Notes under the pieces: generated by a model
Database searches by the model: none
What the model saw: only the letters and a program-made list of their open reading frames with translations
Told to the model about the DNA's origin: nothing
Made by a program: the position numbers and the translations under genes
From: Neptuniibacter pectenicola
Lineage (GTDB): Bacteria; Pseudomonadota; Gammaproteobacteria; Pseudomonadales; Balneatricaceae
NCBI RefSeq assembly: GCF_001597735.1
Contig: NZ_LUTS01000004.1
Coordinates: 248,001 to 312,000 of the forward strand
Direction: 5' to 3'
Length of the DNA stretch: 64,000 nt
Part shown: piece by piece, positions 5,096-16,259 of the stretch
How the letters are laid out: each line of letters opens with the position of its first letter
Numbering within the stretch: position 1 is the stretch's first letter

Positions 5096-6676
5096 ATGAC
5101 CAAAGATATTCACGCTCAACGGATTTTAATTCTAGATTTTGGATCGCAATATACTCAGCTTATCGCGCGTCGTGTTCGTGAGATTGGTGTGTATTGTGAA
5201 ATTCGTGCATGGGACATGTCTGAAGACGAGATTCGCGAGTTTGCACCTAAAGGTGTGATCTTAGCGGGTGGGCCTGAATCAGTGACTGAAGGTGATTCAC
5301 CCCGTGCGCCTGCGATCATTTTTGATCTAGGTGTGCCGGTCTTAGGTATCTGCTACGGCATGCAGACGATGGCTGAGCAATTAGGCGGCACGGTTTCAGC
5401 CTCCGATAAGCGTGAATTTGGTTATGCGCAGGTGCGTTTAGAAGATAGCCCTAGCCACTTGCTAGAAGGGATTGAAGACCATGTAGCTAACAACGGCTCT
5501 TTGTTGTTAGATGTGTGGATGAGTCATGGCGATAAGGTGACACAGCTACCTGAAGGTTTCTCTATTATCGCAGCGACCGAATCAGCCCCTATTGCTGCTA
5601 TGTGTAACCCAACTAAGAACTTCTACGGTGTTCAGTTTCACCCAGAAGTAACACATACAAAACAAGGCGGTCGTATTCTTGAACGTTTTGTTGTGGATAT
5701 TTGTGGTACTGAGGCACTTTGGACATCTGCGAATATTATTGCCGATCAGATTGAAAAAGTGCGTGCGCAAGTGGGCGATAGCAAAGTTTTGTTGGGCTTA
5801 TCGGGCGGCGTGGATTCCTCGGTTGTGGCTGCGTTGTTGCATAAAGCGATTGGCGATCAGTTAACCTGTGTCTTTGTCGATAATGGCCTATTGCGTAAGC
5901 AGGAAGGCGATCAGGTTATGGATATGTTCGCTAAGAACATGGGCGTTAAGGTGATCCGTGTTGATGCGGAAGACCTATTCCTAGGACGCTTAAAGGGCGA
6001 GAATGATCCAGAAGCCAAGCGAAAAATTATCGGTAATACTTTTATCGAAGTGTTTGATAAGGAAGCCACTAAACTTACTGAAGTTAACTTCCTTGCGCAG
6101 GGTACGATCTACCCCGACGTAATCGAATCGGCTGCAGCAAAAACCGGCAAAGCGCACGTGATTAAATCCCATCATAACGTTGGCGGCTTGCCAGACGATA
6201 TGAAGATGGACCTAGTTGAACCGCTACGCGAGCTGTTTAAAGATGAAGTCCGTAAGCTGGGTCTAGAGTTGGGCTTGCCTTACGATATGGTCTACCGTCA
6301 TCCTTTCCCAGGACCGGGTTTAGGTGTGCGTATTCTGGGTGAAGTGAAGAAAGAGTATGCAGATATTCTGCGTGAAGCGGATGCGATCTTCCTTGAAGAG
6401 CTGCATAAAGCGGATTGGTACCATAAAACAAGTCAGTCTTTTGCCGTATTCCTACCGGTTAAATCGGTAGGTGTTGTCGGTGATGGCCGTCGTTATGAGT
6501 ATGTTATTGCGCTTAGAGCGGTAGAAACGATTGATTTCATGACGGCACGTTGGGCGCATCTGCCTTATGAGCTGTTGGAAACGGTTTCTAGTCGTATTAT
6601 TAATGAGATCGCGCACGTATCACGCGTAACTTATGATGTAAGCTCTAAGCCACCGGCTACGATTGAATGGGAGTAG
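5096..6676 (+). CDS. guaA: GMP synthase (glutamine-hydrolysing)
   Basis: 526 aa, converting XMP to GMP. The start is set at 5096 ([19 protein letters not shown]) because the family begins there; the open frame extends 19 codons upstream into the terminator. Glutaminase triad: Cys86 in GICYGMQ, His182 and Glu184 in FHPEV. The ATP-pyrophosphatase P-loop SGGVDSS starts at residue 236, and the dimerisation domain ends in PPATIEWE. The extreme 3' end (6662-6676) resembles a sequence at 11675-11689, consistent with guaA as an integration site of the following island. Confidence 0.98.
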
Positions 6677-6714
6677 GGTTGGCAATAAATAGCTGATCAG
6701 ACCTTTTCGAAGTG

Positions 6715-6747
6715 AAAAATGCCAGTCAGTTTCTGATTGGCATTTTT
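6715..6747 (+). terminator. Intrinsic terminator downstream of guaA
   Basis: A 15-bp stem, AAAAATGCCAGTCAG (6715-6729) against CTGATTGGCATTTTT (6733-6747) with one wobble pair, followed by more T. If the island inserted at the guaA end, this may be supplied by the island. Confidence 0.85.
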
Positions 6748-6795
6748 TTTGGTTTTTATTGTGATACGTGCCTTCCATTTTTTAAACAGTGGTAG

Positions 6796-6948
6796 TACAA
6801 CACCGACCGCGGCCTGAATATGAAAGCCATTGCTGACAAAATGGAGGTATTCCAAAACAGGTTGGCCGGGCGTGCTTACAAGGACATGAAGAGATCGGTC
6901 GATCAAATCGACAAAATGAGACGCTGGCCGTTTGGTCGACGCAAGTAG
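6796..6948 (+). pseudogene. C-terminal relic of an unidentified mobilisation-region gene
   Basis: An open frame of 50 codons closed by TAG at 6946-6948, preceded in frame by a stop at 6793-6795 and without a convincing start; the first ATG is at 6820. The peptide (ending RRWPFGRRK) is basic and helical and looks like the tail of a larger plasmid-type protein cut by the left island boundary. I do not recognise the family. Its GC-rich composition matches the neighbouring traJ part, not guaA. Confidence 0.4.
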
Positions 6949-6960
6949 TTAGAAAGCACA

Positions 6961-6986
6961 CGGGCCGGTGATGGTGCACCGGCCCG
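6961..6986. repeat. Perfect 10-bp GC-rich inverted repeat
   Basis: CGGGCCGGTG (6961-6970) and CACCGGCCCG (6977-6986) pair completely over a 6-nt loop. There is no T tract, so it may be a terminator remnant of the upstream gene or part of a transfer-origin region upstream of traJ. No IncP nick sequence was recognised nearby. Confidence 0.6.
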
Positions 6987-7020
6987 CATTTCCACATACC
7001 ACCTGACAGAGAGGTGACAC

Positions 7021-7248
7021 ATGACAACCACACATAATATCGAAGTTCAGCAAGCAATTCATCAGGCAGCGACCAAGCTGGCCGCCCTGGAGTTCATCGA
7101 CTAGGAAACCGCCCGGCAGATTTCGCCCGTTGCGGAAGCCGTCGCCAATATGTTCACGATCCTGTACTACCAGGCTGAAACTGGTCGAGCGACGCCGGAG
7201 GACTTCCAGGAGGCGTTGGACACTATTCGCCAGGTGACAAGGAGGTAA
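7021..7248 (+). pseudogene. Small ORF upstream of traJ, interrupted by an amber codon
   Basis: A 75-codon frame from ATG 7021 (MTTTHNIEVQQAIHQ) to TAA 7246-7248, with a TAG at codon 28 (7102-7104). The residues on both sides of the TAG continue in the same frame with matching composition. The terminal codons contain the Shine-Dalgarno sequence of traJ (AAGGAGGT), as expected for a coupled two-gene unit. Product unknown. It is either a point-mutated pseudogene or, less likely, read through. Confidence 0.55.
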
Positions 7249-7256
7249 GGCAAAAG

Positions 7257-7628
7257 ATGATGAGCGAAAAGGCAAAACGAATAACGAGGAAGAGCAGTAC
7301 ACCTATCAAGGTGTACAGCTTACCCGAGGAAAAGGAACATATCGAGGTGCAAACAAAGCGAGCAGGCATGAGCGTTACGCGTTATCTGCGTGAGGTTGGC
7401 CAGAGCTACAAGATCAAGGGTGTGGTCGATTGTGAGAAGGTCCGGGAGTTGGCTCTAATCAACGGCGATCTTGGCCGTTTGGGTGGCCTATTGAAGCTAT
7501 GGCTGACCGATGACGTGCGAACTGCCCAGTTCGGCCAGTCAACAATCCTTGCTGTCCTCCGCAAGATTGAGGCCACACAGGAGGAAATGGGAAAAGTTAT
7601 GACCAAGGTGGTCATGCCGAAGATATGA
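7257..7628 (+). CDS. traJ: IncP-type TraJ, oriT-recognition/relaxosome protein
   Basis: 123 aa, the length of RK2/RP4 TraJ. The segments PIKVYSLPEEKEHIE, INGDLGRLGGLLKLWLTDD and a C-terminal GKVMTKVVMP match that family closely. It is a ribbon-helix-helix DNA-binding protein that binds oriT and recruits the TraI relaxase. ATG 7257 follows AAGGAGGT by about 10 nt; ATG 7260 is equally possible. In RK2, traH/traI lie downstream, but here an intrinsic terminator and the RT genes follow, so traJ is an orphan. It may let the island be mobilised in trans by an IncP-like plasmid. Confidence 0.85.
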   Translation: MMSEKAKRITRKSSTPIKVYSLPEEKEHIEVQTKRAGMSVTRYLREVGQSYKIKGVVDCEKVRELALINGDLGRLGGLLKLWLTDDVRTAQFGQSTILAVLRKIEATQEEMGKVMTKVVMPKI

Positions 7629-7652
7629 ACCACAACAGGTTGATTCAGAGCA

Positions 7653-7670
7653 GGCGGCCAACTGGTCGCC
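7653..7670 (+). terminator. Intrinsic terminator after traJ
   Basis: GGCGGCCA (7653-7660) pairs with TGGTCGCC (7663-7670), with the innermost pairs probably open, followed by TTTATT. It separates the traJ unit from the RT operon. Confidence 0.65.
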
Positions 7671-7685
7671 TTTATTAACGTTAAA

Positions 7686-7755
7686 CCAACGAAGAATCTA
7701 TCGTTGGATTTGTGTCAGTATATCGATTACTGTAGCGAGAATGGTAAAGTAGTAT
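7686..7755 (+). promoter_or_regulatory. Candidate promoter and inverted repeat upstream of the RT operon
   Basis: A perfect inverted repeat CCAACGA (7686-7692)/TCGTTGG (7701-7707) lies upstream of a weak promoter candidate: TTACTG (7727-7732), 17-bp spacer, TAGTAT (7750-7755). It sits in AT-rich DNA 70-140 nt before the first RT start, which has an AAGGTG ribosome-binding site. The repeat could be an operator; this is inference. Confidence 0.35.
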
Positions 7756-7826
7756 ATAAGTATAAATCTTTATATTTTAGTTCCATATTTATTTAGTGGG
7801 CTAGGGATGGAGTAAGGTGATCGATT

Positions 7827-9173
7827 ATGGAACAGTCTTTTTCAGTTAAAAACTTCCGGAGTATTTATGATCTTGATCTGAAAAATCGAGGAGATTTAGA
7901 GCGTGAATACTTCGAAAAAGCATATGCAGAAAGACTGAAAATTAGAGTTTTAAAAAAGTTTAAGTATCGGATTCTATCCAAATTTAAAAAAGGCGTGATA
8001 ACAAAAGAATCCTATGAGAAAAGGGTGGATTTGATCCGTAAGTTATTGGAGGTAAGAAAGGGTAGATACAATAGTTTTGTAAATGATGAAATTGAAAGTA
8101 TTTGCAATAAGGTAAATAGGAAGGGGTATAATCTCCCATTATCAAAGCTTCCCGATCAGATTTCTGGTAAAGATGTATTTACAATTGGGAAAAGCGTGGA
8201 GAGTGTATTTGTTACAAGGCATTTACATAACATAATAAGAAGTACTTATAATATAAAGCAATCGCATCGTGACTTAATCGTTAGCAGAGTTAAAAGTATT
8301 TGTTTGGATAAAAGTCCTAAATATATTGTTAAAGCTGACGTAAAAGATTTTTACGAAAGCATTGAGCATGAACTAATTATAAAAAAGCTGCACGCATCTA
8401 CGAAGCTGTCTGTATTGCCTAAGAGAATACTTACCCAACTTCTTAGATCATATGCTAAATTGGTGGGGTGTGATAAAGGGCTTCCAAGAGGTGTTGGTTT
8501 GAGCGCCTATTTATCAGAAGTATATATGAAAGACTTGGATGAAGAGCTGGTGAACAATTCAGATTTAACTTTTTATTCTCGCTACGTTGATGATTTGATA
8601 TTGATATACTCTCCAGATGTTATAAAGGATAAATCTCATTATCTTCAAGTTGTAGATGAAGCTGTCGGTAGGAAGAAATTAAAATTAAACAATAAAACAA
8701 AAGAAATTGATCTGACAGTGGATAAAGCTCAAGAGTTTGAATATCTGGGGTATAGGTTTTTATTGAAAGGTAAAGATATAGCAATCCGGATTAGCAGTAA
8801 AAGGGTTGATAAATACAAAGACCGTATCAATCAGGCTTTCGATAACTATTTTAAAAAGTGCAAATATAATCCTGATAAAAAAGCTGACCTTCTAATAGAT
8901 AAAATTCGGTTTTTGACTGGAAATACTCGGCTTTTGCATGCCAAAAGCAAAGCGTTTACTGGCGTCTATTTTAATAACATGTATATAAATGACATTAGTG
9001 ATCTGGAAGAGATTGATAAGTACCTGAGAAATAAGTTGCTAGCAATAACAGATCAGAGATTACATAGGCGCCTAAATAAATTTTCTTTTGTTGAAGGATT
9101 TGAAAATAAAGTATTCAGAAGTTTTACTACTGCTGACTTGAAAAATATAACTAGAGGATGGAAGGATGCCTAA
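7827..9173 (+). CDS. drt3a: Reverse transcriptase, probable Drt3a (UG3-type) of a DRT3 defence system
   Basis: 448 aa. The RT palm motifs are complete: motif A ADVKDFYESI (Asp171), motif B GLPRGVGLSAYLSEVYM (218-234), motif C YVDD (253-256), and a FEYLGYRF segment (304-311). The N-terminal 110 residues are basic and helical; the C-terminal 130 residues form an all-alpha, Lys-rich region without recognisable thumb/X, maturase or HNH domains. That excludes group II introns and is unlike retrons. Size, motif style (LPRGxGLSAxLSE) and pairing with a second, larger RT fit the UG3 partner of type 3 defence-associated RTs. In that family, as I recall, Drt3a copies an ACACAC template in a partner RNA into GT-repeat DNA. 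Assignment to DRT3 is inferred from architecture, not a search. Confidence 0.75.
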   Translation: MEQSFSVKNFRSIYDLDLKNRGDLEREYFEKAYAERLKIRVLKKFKYRILSKFKKGVITKESYEKRVDLIRKLLEVRKGRYNSFVNDEIESICNKVNRKGYNLPLSKLPDQISGKDVFTIGKSVESVFVTRHLHNIIRSTYNIKQSHRDLIVSRVKSICLDKSPKYIVKADVKDFYESIEHELIIKKLHASTKLSVLPKRILTQLLRSYAKLVGCDKGLPRGVGLSAYLSEVYMKDLDEELVNNSDLTFYSRYVDDLILIYSPDVIKDKSHYLQVVDEAVGRKKLKLNNKTKEIDLTVDKAQEFEYLGYRFLLKGKDIAIRISSKRVDKYKDRINQAFDNYFKKCKYNPDKKADLLIDKIRFLTGNTRLLHAKSKAFTGVYFNNMYINDISDLEEIDKYLRNKLLAITDQRLHRRLNKFSFVEGFENKVFRSFTTADLKNITRGWKDA

Positions 9174-11211
9174 GAAAACATTATCGATCAATTTCCCAAT
9201 TGAGAGAGTAGTCCTTTCAGACCTGCTTCCATATGAGGTTCCAATAACATTTTCGAATAGGCATTTTTATAATTTTATAGTCGACAATAAAATAGAATGC
9301 TTGGGAGATTATTTTTTTTGGAGGAGGAAGGATGACGCATTCGATAGATTAGTAATGCTCTTGTTGGGCGTTCCTAGCAAAAAGGAAGTTAAGATAATTG
9401 AGGAAGAAGGGCAGAAATACAGCAAGGTTAAATTTAAAGAAAATAAAGCAGCTACATTTACTGTTCCATTTGTATTCGGAATCTCACATAAAAAAGATCA
9501 GTACAGACATCTCTCTTTAATTCATCCAAGATCTCAAGTTATTGCTGTAGAATTTTATAAAAATAATAAAGACCTAATAACTTACTATTGCGATAAAAGC
9601 CAGTTTAGTCTCAGGTCGGCGAAGCGAGTTGCTGGTTGTACATATGTAGATAAGAAGTCACTTATTGAGCAGTTTGATACTGATGGTGAAGTAATAGAGG
9701 TTGAAGGTGAGAATTACGAAAATTTGAAATCGTTTTTTGTATACGATAAATATAGCAGTATCTTTAATTTTTACGAATCTGATGAATATCATGATTGCGA
9801 GGGAAGGTATAGTTTTTTATCAAAGCTTGATATCTCGAATTGTTTTGATTCCATTTATACCCACTCGATAGCTTGGGCTGTATACAGTAAAGAATATGCC
9901 AAAAATAATCTTAGTCAAACTAAATCAACTTTTCCAAATGTTTTTGATAGTTTGATGCAGCAGCTTAACTATAATGAGACAAATGGAATTGTAATTGGTC
10001 CTGAATTGTCTAGAATATTTGCCGAAATTATACTTCAAGCTATTGATAATGATATTGTCTCAGACTTGGAGGGAAAGAGAGTTTTATTTGGGTTTGACTA
10101 CCATGTATTTAGGTATGTTGATGACTTCTTTGTTTTTTATAATGACCAAGAGGTTTTCTCTAAAATAAAGTCTTCAATTAGTCTTTGTTTGACAAAATAC
10201 AAGCTTAACCTGAATAAAAGTAAAGAGTACTTTTTTGATAGGCCTGTGATAACGCCTATCACAATAGCAAAAAAGAAAATTGCTGATCTTTTGTCAGATA
10301 AGCTGAAATATAATATAGAATATGTAGAGGGAACTAAGGAAATTGAGAAAGCTAGTTTGTATTTCAGAAAGTCAAGTTTAATTACAGACTTTAAATCTAT
10401 CCTCCATACGTCAGATGTTTCATATGGGGATATACTCAACTACACTCTTTCTATATTAGAGAAAAAAGTAAGAAAGATATTGCTTGTTTATACTAAGGTT
10501 CCTGAAGGTGAGAATGTTGATAAACAACTTGTAAGTGCGCTAGTTAGTTTAATTGAATTTTCATTCTTCATATATTCAATGTCTCCAAAAGTTAATGGAA
10601 CCATTAAGCTCTGTAGGATTATGCAGCAGATTATTCTGTTTGTTAATGATCGCACTCTGGGGATTGAATACCGTGATGTAATATTCCGTTCTATATTTAA
10701 TGGCTCTTGTTCTGTATTGGAAGACATAAAGGTAGGAAATGAAACTCCAGTTGAGACATTGTACTTGCTTGTTTTAATGCGTCAGCTAGGTAAGTTCTAT
10801 TGGCTTGATGAATTTTCCTTGTGCAAATATTTTGGGATTGTAAAAAGATCTGAGGGCATTAATGTTGAAAAAGATTTAAACTACTTTTCTATTATTGTTT
10901 TGCTGTTTTATATAGAGAACAAAAAACGGTATGATTTTTTAAAAGAGCCAATTGAAGAATACGTTTTGCAAAAATATGCACAAAAAAATTCGATAATAAA
11001 CATTGATAGTGAAATCACACATATGACTCTTGATTTGATTGCGTGTCCATATGTGAGTAATAAACTCAAAGATGAAATTTTAGAAAAAAGTGATGTCCCT
11101 AAGGCGTGTCGAAAAAAAGTTATCAGCTATTGCTCGACTTGGTTCACTAAGTGGTCAGGGTACAATTTCGCTAAAGAGCTAGACGCTAAAGTGAGCCAAG
11201 ATGTATACTGA
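9166..11211 (+). CDS. drt3b: Second reverse transcriptase, probable Drt3b (UG8-type)
   Basis: 681 aa, starting inside the last codons of the first RT gene (8-nt overlap, ATGCCTAA), so the two are translated from one message. RT motifs: motif A LSKLDISNCFDSI (Asp222), motif B NGIVIGPELSRIFAEIIL (273-290), motif C FRYVDDFFVFYN (YVDD 317-320). About 210 residues precede motif A and 360 follow motif C; the C-terminal half is helical and has no domain I recognise. Codon use is as AT-rich as the first RT and unlike the surrounding chromosome. In the DRT3 model Drt3b makes the complementary dinucleotide-repeat strand and the pair acts against phage. A generic Abi/UG RT is the alternative. Confidence 0.75.
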   Translation: MPKKTLSINFPIERVVLSDLLPYEVPITFSNRHFYNFIVDNKIECLGDYFFWRRKDDAFDRLVMLLLGVPSKKEVKIIEEEGQKYSKVKFKENKAATFTVPFVFGISHKKDQYRHLSLIHPRSQVIAVEFYKNNKDLITYYCDKSQFSLRSAKRVAGCTYVDKKSLIEQFDTDGEVIEVEGENYENLKSFFVYDKYSSIFNFYESDEYHDCEGRYSFLSKLDISNCFDSIYTHSIAWAVYSKEYAKNNLSQTKSTFPNVFDSLMQQLNYNETNGIVIGPELSRIFAEIILQAIDNDIVSDLEGKRVLFGFDYHVFRYVDDFFVFYNDQEVFSKIKSSISLCLTKYKLNLNKSKEYFFDRPVITPITIAKKKIADLLSDKLKYNIEYVEGTKEIEKASLYFRKSSLITDFKSILHTSDVSYGDILNYTLSILEKKVRKILLVYTKVPEGENVDKQLVSALVSLIEFSFFIYSMSPKVNGTIKLCRIMQQIILFVNDRTLGIEYRDVIFRSIFNGSCSVLEDIKVGNETPVETLYLLVLMRQLGKFYWLDEFSLCKYFGIVKRSEGINVEKDLNYFSIIVLLFYIENKKRYDFLKEPIEEYVLQKYAQKNSIINIDSEITHMTLDLIACPYVSNKLKDEILEKSDVPKACRKKVISYCSTWFTKWSGYNFAKELDAKVSQDVY

Positions 11212-11390
11212 AAAGAGCGCATCGTGCGACTTAATGGCTGTTTGCAGCTCACACACCAGCGCGCATGGGTAGACATTGTCCTACGCATGGAGATGTATGC
11301 CTGAGCGGTCCGCATGAGCCGCTCGGTCTCGGCAGTTCTACCAGACGTGAGGCGAAAGCTAAGTCGCATGGAGGGTGGGGCTGCCTAGGC
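11212..11390 (+). ncRNA. Candidate DRT3 structured RNA with ACACAC template
   Basis: No credible ORF lies here, but the region is GC-richer than the RT genes and packed with hairpins: CGCA-TCG-TGCG (11218-11228), GCTG-TTTG-CAGC (11237-11248), a stem at 11269-11284 with a one-base bulge, GAGCGG/CCGCTC (11303-11308/11319-11324, extendable by two pairs), GTCT/AGAC (11326-11329/11343-11346) and GCGA/TCGC (11352-11355/11364-11367). An ACACAC tract (11251-11256) lies unpaired just after the second hairpin. It directly follows the drt3b stop without a promoter, so it could be processed from the operon transcript. Ends are estimated. Confidence 0.65.
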
Positions 11391-11413
11391 TCTCTTATAT
11401 AACCTTTGCTTGT

Positions 11414-11641
11414 ATGACACATAGTTCAGATAAACCTTCCCTCCCTGATTTTGGCTCTGATAGAAAAGAAGCTAAGGTGCGCATGCTAACCCCTGAAGAG
11501 ATCGTTCAGTTACGGCAGGACATGGCCGAATCCTCAGCTTGGGCCAGGGCAGAACTCAAACGCCGACGAGTAGCAAAAAATCAAAAAAATTCTGAGCATG
11601 GTATAGATGATGGTATCGAGAAAGGTTGCTCTTCTAACTAG
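11414..11641 (+). CDS. Small hypothetical protein
   Basis: 75 aa from ATG 11414 (MTHSSDKPSLPDFGSDRKEAK); an upstream ATG at 11375 overlaps the RNA region and is less likely. The sequence is charged: an acidic N-terminal part, then TPEEIVQLRQDMAESS and a basic KRRRVAKNQ helix. No signal peptide or membrane segment. It is not recognised. It lies between the RNA region and the guaA-tail-like sequence, so it may be island cargo or a chromosomal gene displaced from guaA. Confidence 0.5.
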   Translation: MTHSSDKPSLPDFGSDRKEAKVRMLTPEEIVQLRQDMAESSAWARAELKRRRVAKNQKNSEHGIDDGIEKGCSSN

Positions 11642-11674
11642 CTGTTATTTCTATGTATTTTCTTCTAATTGATA

Positions 11675-11689
11675 TTCGAGTGGGAATAA
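11675..11689 (+). other. Possible right attachment site: relic of a guaA 3' end
   Basis: TTCGAGTGGGAATAA reads Phe-Glu-Trp-Glu-stop, against Ile-Glu-Trp-Glu-stop (ATTGAATGGGAGTAG, 6662-6676) at the end of guaA; 10 of 15 bases agree, with mostly synonymous differences. A strong terminator follows, as expected for the original end of guaA. This is the pattern left when an element inserts at the 3' end of guaA and replaces it. Confidence 0.45.
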
Positions 11690-11723
11690 TCGCTCTTGCG
11701 ATTAGTCTTATGAGGTTGTAGTT

Positions 11724-11745
11724 AAGCCCACGCTAACGTGGGCTT
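11724..11745. terminator. Bidirectional terminator
   Basis: AAGCCCACG (11724-11732) and CGTGGGCTT (11737-11745) pair perfectly over CTAA and run into T6. It separates convergent transcription from the island side and the flavoprotein gene. Confidence 0.9.
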
Positions 11746-11774
11746 TTTTGTGCGCGGCGTTTCAAGTTATTGGT

Positions 11775-13019
11775 TCAGCCTTGGCAGGCTAATGGGGTGG
11801 GTGTGGTAGAGGCTTGTGCCGCAGCGGTCATGCAGGGGGTGCCAAGGGCGGAAACGACCGAGAGAACCTGCTTGTACCCAGTCCTTAATAGGAAGGTAGG
11901 GGCGCGACCATAGCTCTTGATGCCTAAGATAAATACGCCGGGTTCCGGATGGGATAGTTCGCTTAAACCATGTTCAGGGACTGATCCGCAGCTGTGCTTA
12001 TTTGGGTCGATCAGTGGTGCCAGCCGCGTAGGGCTTTGAGTTGCCGGGTCAAGGGAGATACGCAGTTCCGCTAGGAGGCTAAGGTCGGGGCGGAAGCCGG
12101 TTGCAGCGATAATACGATCCACTGGCGGCAATGTGCGTGAACCACTGTGTACAATCAGTTTACCCGCTTTATGTTCGATCTTATCGATTTCAAGTTCAGT
12201 GAATACCTCAATGCGCCCCTGCTCAAGGAGTTCTTGAATTCGCAGTTCAAGGCATCGGCGCTCTTGCAGTTCATCATTTTCGGGTGACCGAGCGACATTG
12301 GCTACTGATGCATTTCTTACCCCCCACAGAACACGCATCGTTTTATGTTCATCGGCGAGTCGAACTAAATCTTGCAGTGCGTTAAAAGCTGAATGGCCGC
12401 CACCCACAACTAATACAGTTCTGTTTTTATACTGCTCCCGTGCAGAGCCGAGAATATTGGGAACACCGTAAGCAATAGCCTCTTTCGCTTCATTTTCGCC
12501 CAAGGCTGGAATGCCGTGGCTACCTAGCCAGTTAGGTGTTTGATAGGTGCCTGATGCATCGATAACGGCCTGCACGATTATATCTTGCTCACCCTCAAGG
12601 TTGGATACTCGCAACACGAACGGTGCTTGATCACGACCTTCAGTACGTAAGAGGTCGTGTTTGAGTCGGCTGACAGACTTAACGTGCGTATTTAACTGTA
12701 GGTGCGGGGCGATTTTAGGATGAGATGCTAAGGGGGTTATATATCGCTCAAGCAGCTCATGTCCGGTAGGGAACTCATTTGCAGCGGGCTCATTCCAATC
12801 CGTTTCTTTAAGCAGCTCTACAGCAGCAGGGTCTAGATTGTATGCCCATGGTGAAAACATACGTACATGGCCCCAGCGAGCAATATTAGCGCCTGCTTGG
12901 CTTTCCGCTTCAAAAAGGATGGGGGTATAGCCTTGCTTCAGTAATTGAACCGCTGCGCTTAATCCTATAGGGCCCGCGCCAATAACGGCTACCGGTAGGT
13001 TGGTTAATTTTTTGTGCAT
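11775..13019 (-). CDS. FAD/NAD(P)-binding flavoprotein oxidoreductase
   Basis: 414 aa from the ATG at 13019 (MHKKLTNLPVAVIGAGPIGLS), chosen because GGAGGAGAGG lies immediately upstream; the longer frame to 13055 would run through the operator. Two Rossmann dinucleotide sites are clear: GAGPIG near the N-terminus for FAD and VVGGGHSAFNAL in the middle for NAD(P)H. ATGFRPDL near the C-terminus is typical of such enzymes. No signal peptide. It resembles the CzcO/monooxygenase-like and thioredoxin-reductase-like flavoproteins; the substrate is unknown. It follows the marR-family gene and carries the same operator, so it is probably the target of that regulator. Confidence 0.85.
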   Translation of the reverse strand: MHKKLTNLPVAVIGAGPIGLSAAVQLLKQGYTPILFEAESQAGANIARWGHVRMFSPWAYNLDPAAVELLKETDWNEPAANEFPTGHELLERYITPLASHPKIAPHLQLNTHVKSVSRLKHDLLRTEGRDQAPFVLRVSNLEGEQDIIVQAVIDASGTYQTPNWLGSHGIPALGENEAKEAIAYGVPNILGSAREQYKNRTVLVVGGGHSAFNALQDLVRLADEHKTMRVLWGVRNASVANVARSPENDELQERRCLELRIQELLEQGRIEVFTELEIDKIEHKAGKLIVHSGSRTLPPVDRIIAATGFRPDLSLLAELRISLDPATQSPTRLAPLIDPNKHSCGSVPEHGLSELSHPEPGVFILGIKSYGRAPTFLLRTGYKQVLSVVSALGTPCMTAAAQASTTPTPLACQG

Positions 13020-13041
13020 AAGCCTCTCCTCCATGATTAAT

Positions 13042-13056
13042 GTTGTTACTAACAAC
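13042..13056. promoter_or_regulatory. MarR-type operator upstream of the flavoprotein gene
   Basis: GTTGTTACTAACAAC is a perfect 7-1-7 palindrome. It lies between the marR stop and the flavoprotein start, just upstream of the ribosome-binding site. An identical palindrome (opposite centre base) sits at the marR promoter. Confidence 0.75.
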
Positions 13057-13077
13057 TAATAGGTTAAAAAAAGTGCG

Positions 13078-13524
13078 CTATGAGCCTAGGCGAGCGCGTG
13101 CAGCTTTTGTTAGCTGCCGAATAAGGGTCAATGTTCCATCAATAACGTCTGGTGACATATCTTTAATGAGTAAAGCCTCTTCCATGATTAGATCTTGATG
13201 GATGGTATGGTAGAGCGCTTCGCCCGCGGGAGTCAGGGACAGCTGGATGGCCCGCTGATCCGCTGGGTCTAACAGTTTGAGCACATACTCTTTACGCAAT
13301 AGGGAATCTACAACGCGGCTGGTGGTACTCTTATCGAGATACATCTCATCAGCAAGTGCCTGAAGCCTTAAAGGGCCACGTTTTATTAACGTTTCAAGTG
13401 CATAACACTGTGCTACCGACACATCGTGAGAGCAGATGTAATCTCGGTCACGGAACTGGTGAACGCGGATGAGTTGGTTGACAGCCTCGTATAGCGCTTC
13501 AGCGCGCTCTAAATTAGCGGGCAT
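13078..13524 (-). CDS. MarR-family transcriptional regulator
   Basis: 148 aa, typical MarR length. A winged-helix core spans about residues 35-120, with PLRLQALADEMYLDKSTTSRVVDSLLRKEYV as recognition helix and wing entry and DQRAIQLSLT as the beta wing. Cys residues at about 31 and 41 (YICSHDVSVAQCYAL) could sense oxidants; this is inference. It is transcribed toward the flavoprotein gene, and both carry the same 15-bp palindrome, so autoregulation and control of that gene are likely. The inducer is unknown. Confidence 0.9.
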   Translation of the reverse strand: MPANLERAEALYEAVNQLIRVHQFRDRDYICSHDVSVAQCYALETLIKRGPLRLQALADEMYLDKSTTSRVVDSLLRKEYVLKLLDPADQRAIQLSLTPAGEALYHTIHQDLIMEEALLIKDMSPDVIDGTLTLIRQLTKAARARLGS

Positions 13525-14655: not shown

Positions 14656-15231
14656 TTTAAGGCTCCTGACGATATTTTTTGATTATCATTGCAACGCTTT
14701 TTTTGAACGACAATAATTGATCTATTTGATTGAAAGTATGCTGAGAGCGCTGCTCGGAATCGCGTTCAATAGTAGCCATTGCGCAGTGGTTTGAAGGCGT
14801 AACGGGAGATAATATTTTTCGAGCAGAAAAAACATGGGAGTAATCAATCATATTGCCATTGTATCGGAGCTAGCCCCCTTATTTTTTCTAAAAGCTAAAA
14901 TAGCTTAGCAGGCAGTGAGTGTTGTTTCTGGCAAAGCGCTGTTAATTTCGGGCACTCGTCGCACCGAGTGCTATATTGATGTTAGTTGATTGATGATTTT
15001 GCGATGTGCATTTATCGGGTTGTATGGAAAATCCGTGTTGTTAATAATGTGGGGATGGCTTCTATGGACGATATGTTTGGAGGCTATATAGTGCGGCGTG
15101 CCGCTGAAGCGTTTATATTTTGATTGCGCATAAACATTATGTGCACTTGGTGGCGGTGAATAAAATGTTGGGATCGATGGGAGAAAATGACGGTAAGATT
15201 TTTTATCTTGTCCGACATAAGGTAGAAAATA
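14656..15231. other. Long intergenic region upstream of the TAXI transporter
   Basis: No gene supported. The minus-strand frame 14657-14851 (64 aa) lacks a ribosome-binding site and homology. A small AAGAT/ATCTT hairpin lies near 15195-15210. The promoter of the TRAP operon should be in the right part; no strong consensus was identified. Confidence 0.4.
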
Positions 15232-15246
15232 GTCGGTTACACCGAC
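15232..15246. promoter_or_regulatory. Inverted repeat in the leader of the TAXI-TRAP operon
   Basis: GTCGGT (15232-15237) and ACCGAC (15241-15246) pair over TAC, about 27 nt before the first gene. It could be an operator or a leader hairpin. Confidence 0.4.
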
Positions 15247-15272
15247 CTTAAATATAACTATAAAGGATGCAA

Positions 15273-16259
15273 ATGATGAAATTGAAGAAGTTATTTACTA
15301 ACACTGTGGTTGCTGCCGGCATCGCGATTGGGGTTCAAAGTGGCGCTGCATTTGCGGCTCCGCAATCATCCTATGTGACTATCGGTACGGGGGGACAGAC
15401 CGGTGTCTATTACGTGGTAGGTCAGTCCATTTGTCGTTTGGTTAATCGTGGTAACAACGATCACGGTATCAAGTGTACTGCGCCATCTACAGGTGGTTCG
15501 ATTGCTAACTTAAATGCCATTCGTGCGGGTAACCAAGATATGGGTGTGGCCCAGTCTGACTGGCAGTACCATGCTTATCATGGCAGCAGTAAATTTGCTG
15601 AACAGGGTGCTAACACAGAGCTCCGCGCGGTATTCTCAGTACATCCTGAACCATTCACCGTGATTGCGCGCTCCGATGCTGGTATTAAGAGCTTTGACGA
15701 TTTGAAAGGCAAGCGGGTTAATATAGGTAACCCAGGTTCCGGCCAGCGCGGCACTATGGAAGTGGTCATGAAGCGTAAAGGCTGGACCATGGATGACTTC
15801 AAACTGGCTTCAGAGTTGAAGGCGTCTGAGCAATCCCAAGCGTTGTGTGATAACAAGGTCGATGCGATTATCTACGCCGTAGGCCATCCTAATGGTTCGA
15901 TTAAAGAAGCAACAACTTCATGTGATACAGTCTTGGTGCCGGTTACCGGTCCTGAAATCACGAAGTTGATCGATGATAACGCTTTTTACGCTGAGGCGAT
16001 TATCCCCGGTGGCATGTATAACGGTAATGATGCCGATACGACTACTTTTGGTGTAGGTGCGACCTTCGTCTCCTCAACTAAGGCTGATCCGGAAGTGATC
16101 TATCAAGTTGTTAAGGCTGTGTTTGATAACTTTGACCGTTTCAAGCGTTTACACCCCGCCTTTGCCAATCTTGATCCTGCTAAAATGATCAAAAATGGTC
16201 TGTCTGCTCCATTACATGAAGGCGCTGTACGTTATTACAAAGAACGTGGCTGGATGTAA
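15273..16259 (+). CDS. TAXI-family TRAP transporter substrate-binding protein
   Basis: About 328 aa. Start placed at 15273, 5 nt after AAAGGA (15276 also possible; 15267 overlaps the Shine-Dalgarno). A signal peptide (MMKLKKLFTNTVVAAGIAIG onward) precedes the TAXI core, starting YVTIGTGGQTGVYYVVG, the family hallmark, with SGQRGTMEVV and DAIIYAVGHP further on. It delivers a carboxylate-type solute in the periplasm to the fused permease encoded next. The substrate cannot be assigned; TAXI proteins are known for 2-oxoglutarate/glutamate-like ligands. Confidence 0.93.
   Translation: MMKLKKLFTNTVVAAGIAIGVQSGAAFAAPQSSYVTIGTGGQTGVYYVVGQSICRLVNRGNNDHGIKCTAPSTGGSIANLNAIRAGNQDMGVAQSDWQYHAYHGSSKFAEQGANTELRAVFSVHPEPFTVIARSDAGIKSFDDLKGKRVNIGNPGSGQRGTMEVVMKRKGWTMDDFKLASELKASEQSQALCDNKVDAIIYAVGHPNGSIKEATTSCDTVLVPVTGPEITKLIDDNAFYAEAIIPGGMYNGNDADTTTFGVGATFVSSTKADPEVIYQVVKAVFDNFDRFKRLHPAFANLDPAKMIKNGLSAPLHEGAVRYYKERGWM

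Follow-up and report, generated by a model that had tools for sequence, protein, structure and literature searches.

A predicted DRT3 anti-phage system, with its non-coding RNA, on an island remnant at guaA in Neptuniibacter pectenicola

Two DRT3 polymerases in one operon

A 64,000-nucleotide stretch of the Neptuniibacter pectenicola genome (contig NZ_LUTS01000004.1, positions 248,001 to 312,000; hereafter the window) almost certainly carries a complete DRT3 anti-phage system, made of drt3a, drt3b and a cis-encoded non-coding RNA (ncRNA), its anti-phage activity being assigned from the family. It is a system of an already-known kind, DRT3, with the full set of parts. The two polymerases and the small RNA probably make repetitive DNA that shuts down the infected cell. 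The protein-coding genes are:

7827–9173, + strand: drt3a, UG3-type RNA-templated reverse transcriptase (RT), 448 residues (NF041747, PADLOC, 9z6y_A, AlphaFold2)
9166–11211, + strand: drt3b, UG8-type protein-primed, protein-templated polymerase with a C-terminal alpha-repeat domain, 681 residues (NF041748)

The two open reading frames (ORFs) share a strand, overlap by 8 bp and contain no internal stop. A first-pass annotation, made from the window's letters, had read them as an AT-rich operon in which a smaller RT precedes a larger one, as in DRT3 (UG3+UG8), and this reading holds. The family placement is based on profile scores. Drt3a matches NCBIfam NF041747 with 357.7 bits (cut-off 200) over model positions 2–412 of 412, and Drt3b matches NF041748 with 713.9 bits (cut-off 350) over 1–647 of 647. 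PADLOC agrees: the best models for the two proteins in the UG/DRT profile search, a check that the same annotation had proposed, are Drt3a at 351 bits (runner-up UG17 at 113) and Drt3b at 651 bits (runner-up Drt6 at 154). The outcome that this annotation had named as a refutation, a placing outside UG3/UG8 or best matches to retrons or group II introns, did not arise in these profile searches. The operon has a G+C content of 32.5%, against 45.7% for the window.

Pfam RVT_1 scores above its cut-off in both proteins (68.5 bits in Drt3a, 46.7 bits in Drt3b), and nothing else in the 3.63-Mb host assembly matches it at E ≤ 0.001. By sequence search of the Protein Data Bank (PDB), the nearest solved chain to Drt3a is the Drt3a chain 9z6y_A, and the nearest to Drt3b are 26cz and then 9z6y_H. 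Among the matches listed, the closest relative of Drt3b is that of Amphritea pacifica, with 98% identity over residues 192–681.

Comparative set of loci

For comparison we gathered related loci, scanning genome contigs for the best 80 of 462 Drt3b relatives. The 116 loci considered comprise L033–L146, L004 and the window. Eight have no ORF with the motif pattern (L067, L103, L127, L129, L137, L139, L145 and L146); the pattern is the limiting factor there, some of these loci holding ORFs of the right length. Seven more were dropped for a Drt3b ORF shorter than 600 residues (L033, L043, L116, L130, L142, L143 and L144). This leaves 101 loci, with L147–L152 and the family-level matches L154 and L155 outside the set. 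A Drt3a-type ORF lies ahead of Drt3b in 94 of the 101, and Drt3a was measured in those 94. The loci come from best-match lists obtained with a query of the long type described below, and their proportions are not natural frequencies.

The 32 listed IMG/VR viral contigs (L121–L152) encode a Drt3b relative, aligned over 400 residues or more in 26 of them, so phage or prophage sequences carry such genes too.

Catalytic, gate and primer residues

The catalytic residues are intact in both proteins, as the first-pass annotation had stated for motif A and YVDD: D171 and Y253-V254-D255-D256 in Drt3a, D222 and Y317-V318-D319-D320 in Drt3b. The catalytic aspartates do not vary among 20 aligned Drt3a or 101 aligned Drt3b sequences, the latter all of 600 residues or more.

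Residues E22, R71, D182, F187 and R241 of E. coli Drt3b (EcoDrt3b) correspond to E24, R114, D222, F227 and R283 of the window, and Y276, D278, D279 and Y666 to Y317, D319, D320 and Y681. The base-gate residues E24 and R114 were matched through the alignment with 26cz and, together with the third gate, R283, through the 101-sequence alignment; the primer tyrosine Y681, the last residue, is equated with Y666 by its C-terminal position, the 26cz alignment stopping earlier. Across the 101 sequences, the column of E24 holds E in 96 and D in 5, that of R114 holds R in 100 and N in 1, and that of R283 holds R throughout. D222, F227, Y317, D319 and D320 are each identical in 101 of 101. Y681 is Y in 100 and A in one, L117, whose protein still ends in a tyrosine. 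We looked in the window for a variant with an altered template or changed base gates and found none.

AlphaFold2 models have a mean predicted local distance difference test (pLDDT) score of 90.6 for Drt3a and 82.4 for Drt3b. From about residue 402 to 655 the Drt3b model is mostly helical, which describes an RT fused to an alpha-helical repeat domain. The best Foldseek matches of this model are class 1 UG polymerases (DRT6, UG15, DRT4 and AbiK). The Drt3a model matches DRT9 chains best, followed by G2L4, DRT2 and group II RTs, with template modelling (TM) scores near 0.5. No DRT3 entry is among the 50 matches listed per model, from a structure library that ends in April 2026.

A structured RNA with an ACACAC template

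Published descriptions place the DRT3 ncRNA downstream of drt3b and give it a 5'-ACACAC-3' loop (PMC13174585, PMC13314766 and PMC13213688). A downstream RNA, mentioned in the first-pass annotation without position or fold, is indeed present; its coordinates and structure are assigned here:

11211–11335, + strand: DRT3 ncRNA core, with P1, SL2, template and 3' hairpin (covariance model R1)
11217–11262, + strand: P1 closing helix, pairing 11217–11220 with 11259–11262 around SL2 and the template (covariation)
11236–11249, + strand: SL2 hairpin, directly 5' of the template (covariation)
11251–11256, + strand: ACACAC template of Drt3a, invariant in 22 aligned ncRNAs
11301–11326, + strand: 3' hairpin of the core (covariation)

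Judged by its sequence and fold, this ncRNA is the third DRT3 component, directly downstream of drt3b. The ACACAC hexamer starts 40 nt past the drt3b stop and is the same in the window and its 21 aligned relatives. It occurs within 350 nt of the stop in 99 of the 101 loci, where first-order resampling predicts 7.8%, and within 100 nt in 80 (2.6% expected).

The three helices are well kept. P1 is paired in 98.8% of cells, with changes on both sides in 2 of its 4 pairs; SL2 in 90.5%, with such changes in 3 of 5; and the 3' hairpin in 91.0%, with 8 of 9. SL2 is likely a stop for reverse transcription. Over the named 18-pair structure, 92.6% of cells are paired in 21 sequences, and 76 cells are changed on both sides, compared with a mean of 22.5 after shuffling. 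The covariation score is 0.621 (shuffled mean 0.297), a value reached by none of 500 shuffles.

At E ≤ 0.01, R1 finds the RNA in 56 of 96 sources, among which the window is the only training sequence. One copy was found in the host genome, where 150 of 383 first-look candidates were scored. In the stretch 6500–13000 no Rfam family covers the DRT3 ncRNA; PtaRNA1 is the only family above its gathering score, and matches to SNORD26 and speF fall below theirs. Two loci from Orbaceae, bee-gut symbionts (L100 and L108), have CACACA instead of ACACAC at the seemingly homologous template place; R1 detects no RNA in either.

Mechanism proposed from E. coli DRT3

DRT3 makes DNA of fixed sequence, one strand of it without a nucleic-acid template, a principle reported in 2026 papers. 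By analogy with the E. coli system (PMC13174585), from which we infer product, trigger and abortive infection, the operon and the ncRNA would be expressed together. Drt3a would hold the RNA by its fold and copy the ACACAC loop repeatedly into poly(TG), while SL2 would keep read-through in check. Drt3b would start its chain on its own C-terminal tyrosine, Y681, and add C and A alternately without a template, R283 selecting C and E24 selecting A. The poly(TG) and poly(CA) strands would anneal into a poly(TG/CA) duplex, kept low by RecBCD until a phage inhibits RecBCD; the duplex would then build up and kill or arrest the cell. As a DRT3 member, the system would also be expected to form a 6:6:6 complex. 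The host encodes recB (1118.8 bits), recC (1183.1 bits) and greA (194.4 bits), each over its cut-off; the check on RecBCD covered recB and recC.

The window resembles E. coli DRT3 (PMC13174585; Drt3b structure 26CZ) in its two RT families with YVDD in both, in an ncRNA with an ACACAC template directly downstream of drt3b, and in the E and R gate residues and C-terminal primer tyrosine of Drt3b. EcoDrt3a and EcoDrt3b have 398 and 667 residues, against 448 and 681 here. Another related locus lies on the E. coli IncY plasmid CP083496.1 (L033): its Drt3b is 53.9% identical over two pieces and its ncRNA is well kept and alignable, but its drt3b is annotated as two ORFs.

Two DRT3 architectures

The 101 loci fall into two types. 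In the 18 short loci, the span from N9 to R148 of Drt3a (window numbering) measures 82–85 residues (16 measured), that from N31 to P101 of Drt3b measures 30–53, and the template lies 102–262 nt past the stop. In the 83 long loci, the window included, the Drt3a span is 130–151 residues in 75 of the 78 measured, the outliers being L090 (0), L077 (97) and L114 (119). Their Drt3b span is 44–86 residues, slightly overlapping the short range, and their template lies at 25–76 nt in 80 of 83. The Drt3b span of the window is 71 residues, and the added part of its Drt3a is modelled by AlphaFold2 as a helical hairpin with helices 30–54 and 60–96.

The RNAs differ as well. Even with the threshold relaxed to E ≤ 1, R1 gives no match in any of the 18 short loci. 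In single-sequence folds that keep the template open, the domain enclosing it measures 127–272 nt in all 16 short loci tried (of 18); among 29 of the 83 long loci it measures 40–69 nt in 24 and is missing in 5, although the helix predicted to enclose it is sometimes not P1 and its size partly repeats the template distance. When a tree is drawn from the RT core of Drt3b, long and short loci lie on either side of one branch, which has 100% support by the Shimodaira–Hasegawa-like approximate likelihood ratio test (SH-aLRT). The tree was built by a quick method from 63 of the 101 rows, with long-branch warnings for L040 and L140. As the split is a single branch, the joint change of the three traits counts once only.

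Both solved DRT3 systems that we found look short. In 26CZ the span from N31 to P101 covers about 30 residues by eye, compared with 71 in the window. The DRT3 of 9z6y/9z6z has a Drt3a of 426 and a Drt3b of 650 residues; 9z6y holds the Drt3a chain nearest to the window and the second-best Drt3b chain, its Drt3b span is about 38, and R148 falls near residue 92 of its Drt3a chain, again by eye. The PDB sequence search returned no solved structure for the long-type branch. The long/short split is not mentioned in the passages of DRT3 papers that were searched; the subgroups defined by Mestre et al. 2022, as cited in PMC13174585, lie outside this comparison.

It is possible, though we hold it only tentatively, that DRT3 architectures trade protein for RNA: in the long type, where the RNA ahead of the template is a compact leader of mostly 25–76 nt closed by a short helix, the Drt3a hairpin and a larger N-terminal insert in Drt3b would replace the RNA-leader scaffolding of E. 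coli DRT3. Long-type complexes would then share the chemistry but be assembled around it in another way. The family-level structural split is worth testing.

A mobile-island remnant at guaA

The DRT3 operon is the cargo of a 5-kb remnant, flanked by attachment sites, at guaA. It travels, or once travelled, with an integrative island whose target is the 3' end of guaA. Besides the operon, the remnant contains:

6665–6675, + strand: left attachment site, GARTGGGARTA, inside the 3' end of guaA
6954–7027, − strand: PtaRNA1 antisense RNA, island backbone (Rfam RF01811, 77.3 bits, gathering score 47)
7257–7628, + strand: TraJ/NikA-type relaxosome gene, island backbone (NF010451, 182.6 bits, cut-off 134; PF21983, 62.7 bits)
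11678–11688, + strand: right attachment site, GARTGGGARTA; homology with Zobellella and Amphritea ends at 11691

The first-pass annotation had linked the operon to a plasmid-type traJ. The traJ-type gene is there, upstream of drt3a; its setting, however, is the guaA island remnant. The window has two copies of GARTGGGARTA where 0.08 would be expected, and the end of guaA lies immediately to the left of the insertion. The right site holds the exact GAGTGGGA core that is reported for guaA islands (PMC9376610 and PMC7775301), and the left site has GAATGGGA, one base different. The remnant shares the target at the 3' end of guaA and this core with GIsul2 and ICERspD18B of the same two sources but differs in having no integrase and in carrying DRT3.

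The DNA of the module is 90% identical to Zobellella over 7703–11691. Its identity to Amphritea pacifica is 98% over 9759–11691 (1.9 kb), the Amphritea contig ending to the left of this part. guaA itself is only 65% identical between the window and Zobellella over its aligned part. The module's 90% against the 65% of guaA, together with the 98% in Amphritea pacifica, suggests recent movement. The Zobellella copy of the module forms the far end of a 22.6-kb island that begins at guaA. This island encodes a tyrosine integrase, an AAA ATPase, NikA, a TraI-type relaxase and a DDE transposase, together with a traJ-II RNA and PtaRNA1. No integrase was found inside the element of the window: the largest non-RT ORF between the attachment sites has 123 residues, which is why we call the element a remnant.

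A search of 10 further genomes from the genus gave no Drt3b over the cut-off, although one of them has a weak 94.7-bit match to another RT; guaA is present in all 10. In Pseudohongiella, whose Drt3b is 80% identical, the module is absent from the guaA region examined. PADLOC matched no further defence genes among 10 flanking proteins.

Weighing the alternatives

Several points weigh against the locus being a complete system that works as in E. coli. The remnant is without an integrase, so a regulatory region may possibly be lost too, and promoter-like and terminator-like sites are no commoner than in shuffled sequences, which makes those scans uninformative. Of the five measures by which covariation is shown, two are often equalled by shuffles: the 13 pairs changed on both sides do not stand out (reached by 29 of 500), nor do the 33 further pair types (reached by 108). 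RNAalifold had first proposed two of the three tested helices from the very alignment used for the test; SL2 was added by eye, and the shuffle control leaves relatedness in place. The window's 102.1-bit score with R1 is not independent, the window being one of the model's 21 training rows. Finally, its RNA architecture is unlike that of the short type, and details of the published complexes may not carry over.

The alternative that survives best, though an unlikely one, takes the DRT3 genes as intact but inactive in this host, stranded passengers on a decaying island. It would fit the lack of an integrase-sized ORF, an island reduced to PtaRNA1, traJ, DRT3 and a small ORF, the in-frame stop in the frame beside PtaRNA1 and the missing Drt3b in the 10 other genomes of the genus; against it stand the intact RTs and ncRNA, the retention of all the catalytic, gate and primer residues that were checked, and the identities, given above, that point to recent movement.

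Less probable still is that the RT pair works in competition among mobile elements, or helps to maintain the island, instead of defending against phages. A conjugative-type island carries the operon in Zobellella, as its remnant does here, and Drt3b relatives occur over 400 residues or more on 26 of the 32 listed viral contigs; yet defence genes are common on phages. Moreover, the E. coli system protects against T5 and lambda (PMC13174585).

That two unrelated RTs (of a retron, a group II intron or a CRISPR locus) became neighbours by chance is hardly credible, since the common RT core and weak matches to all three model types, which would speak for it, are outweighed by a group II intron maturase score of 71.3 bits against a cut-off of 300 and a retron St85 score of 54.7 against 235 (msr/msd were not sought), both far below cut-off as expected from the earlier claim that maturase and retron features are lacking, by CRISPR-RT matches weak enough to be rejected on profile scores, by the two RTs matching no Pfam family except RVT_1 above cut-off, and by the Drt3a-type ORF preceding Drt3b in 94 of 101 loci.

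Hence we retain the DRT3 anti-phage reading. The locus is a well-bounded, mobile-island-borne DRT3 in a host with recB, recC and greA, and would allow a direct test of how general the mechanism and the complex are.

Neighbouring features

The frame 7021–7245 (+ strand) beside PtaRNA1, a candidate partner gene, contains an in-frame stop, so the PtaRNA1 module looks decayed. The small ORF at the island's right end, 11375–11641 (+ strand), has no Pfam match and is conserved in Zobellella and Amphritea save near its C-terminus. Beyond the island, the FAD oxidoreductase and MarR genes at 11775–13524 may be another strain-specific segment, because another genome of the genus (L160) has sequence like that of window positions 14666–15748 within about 1 kb after guaA.

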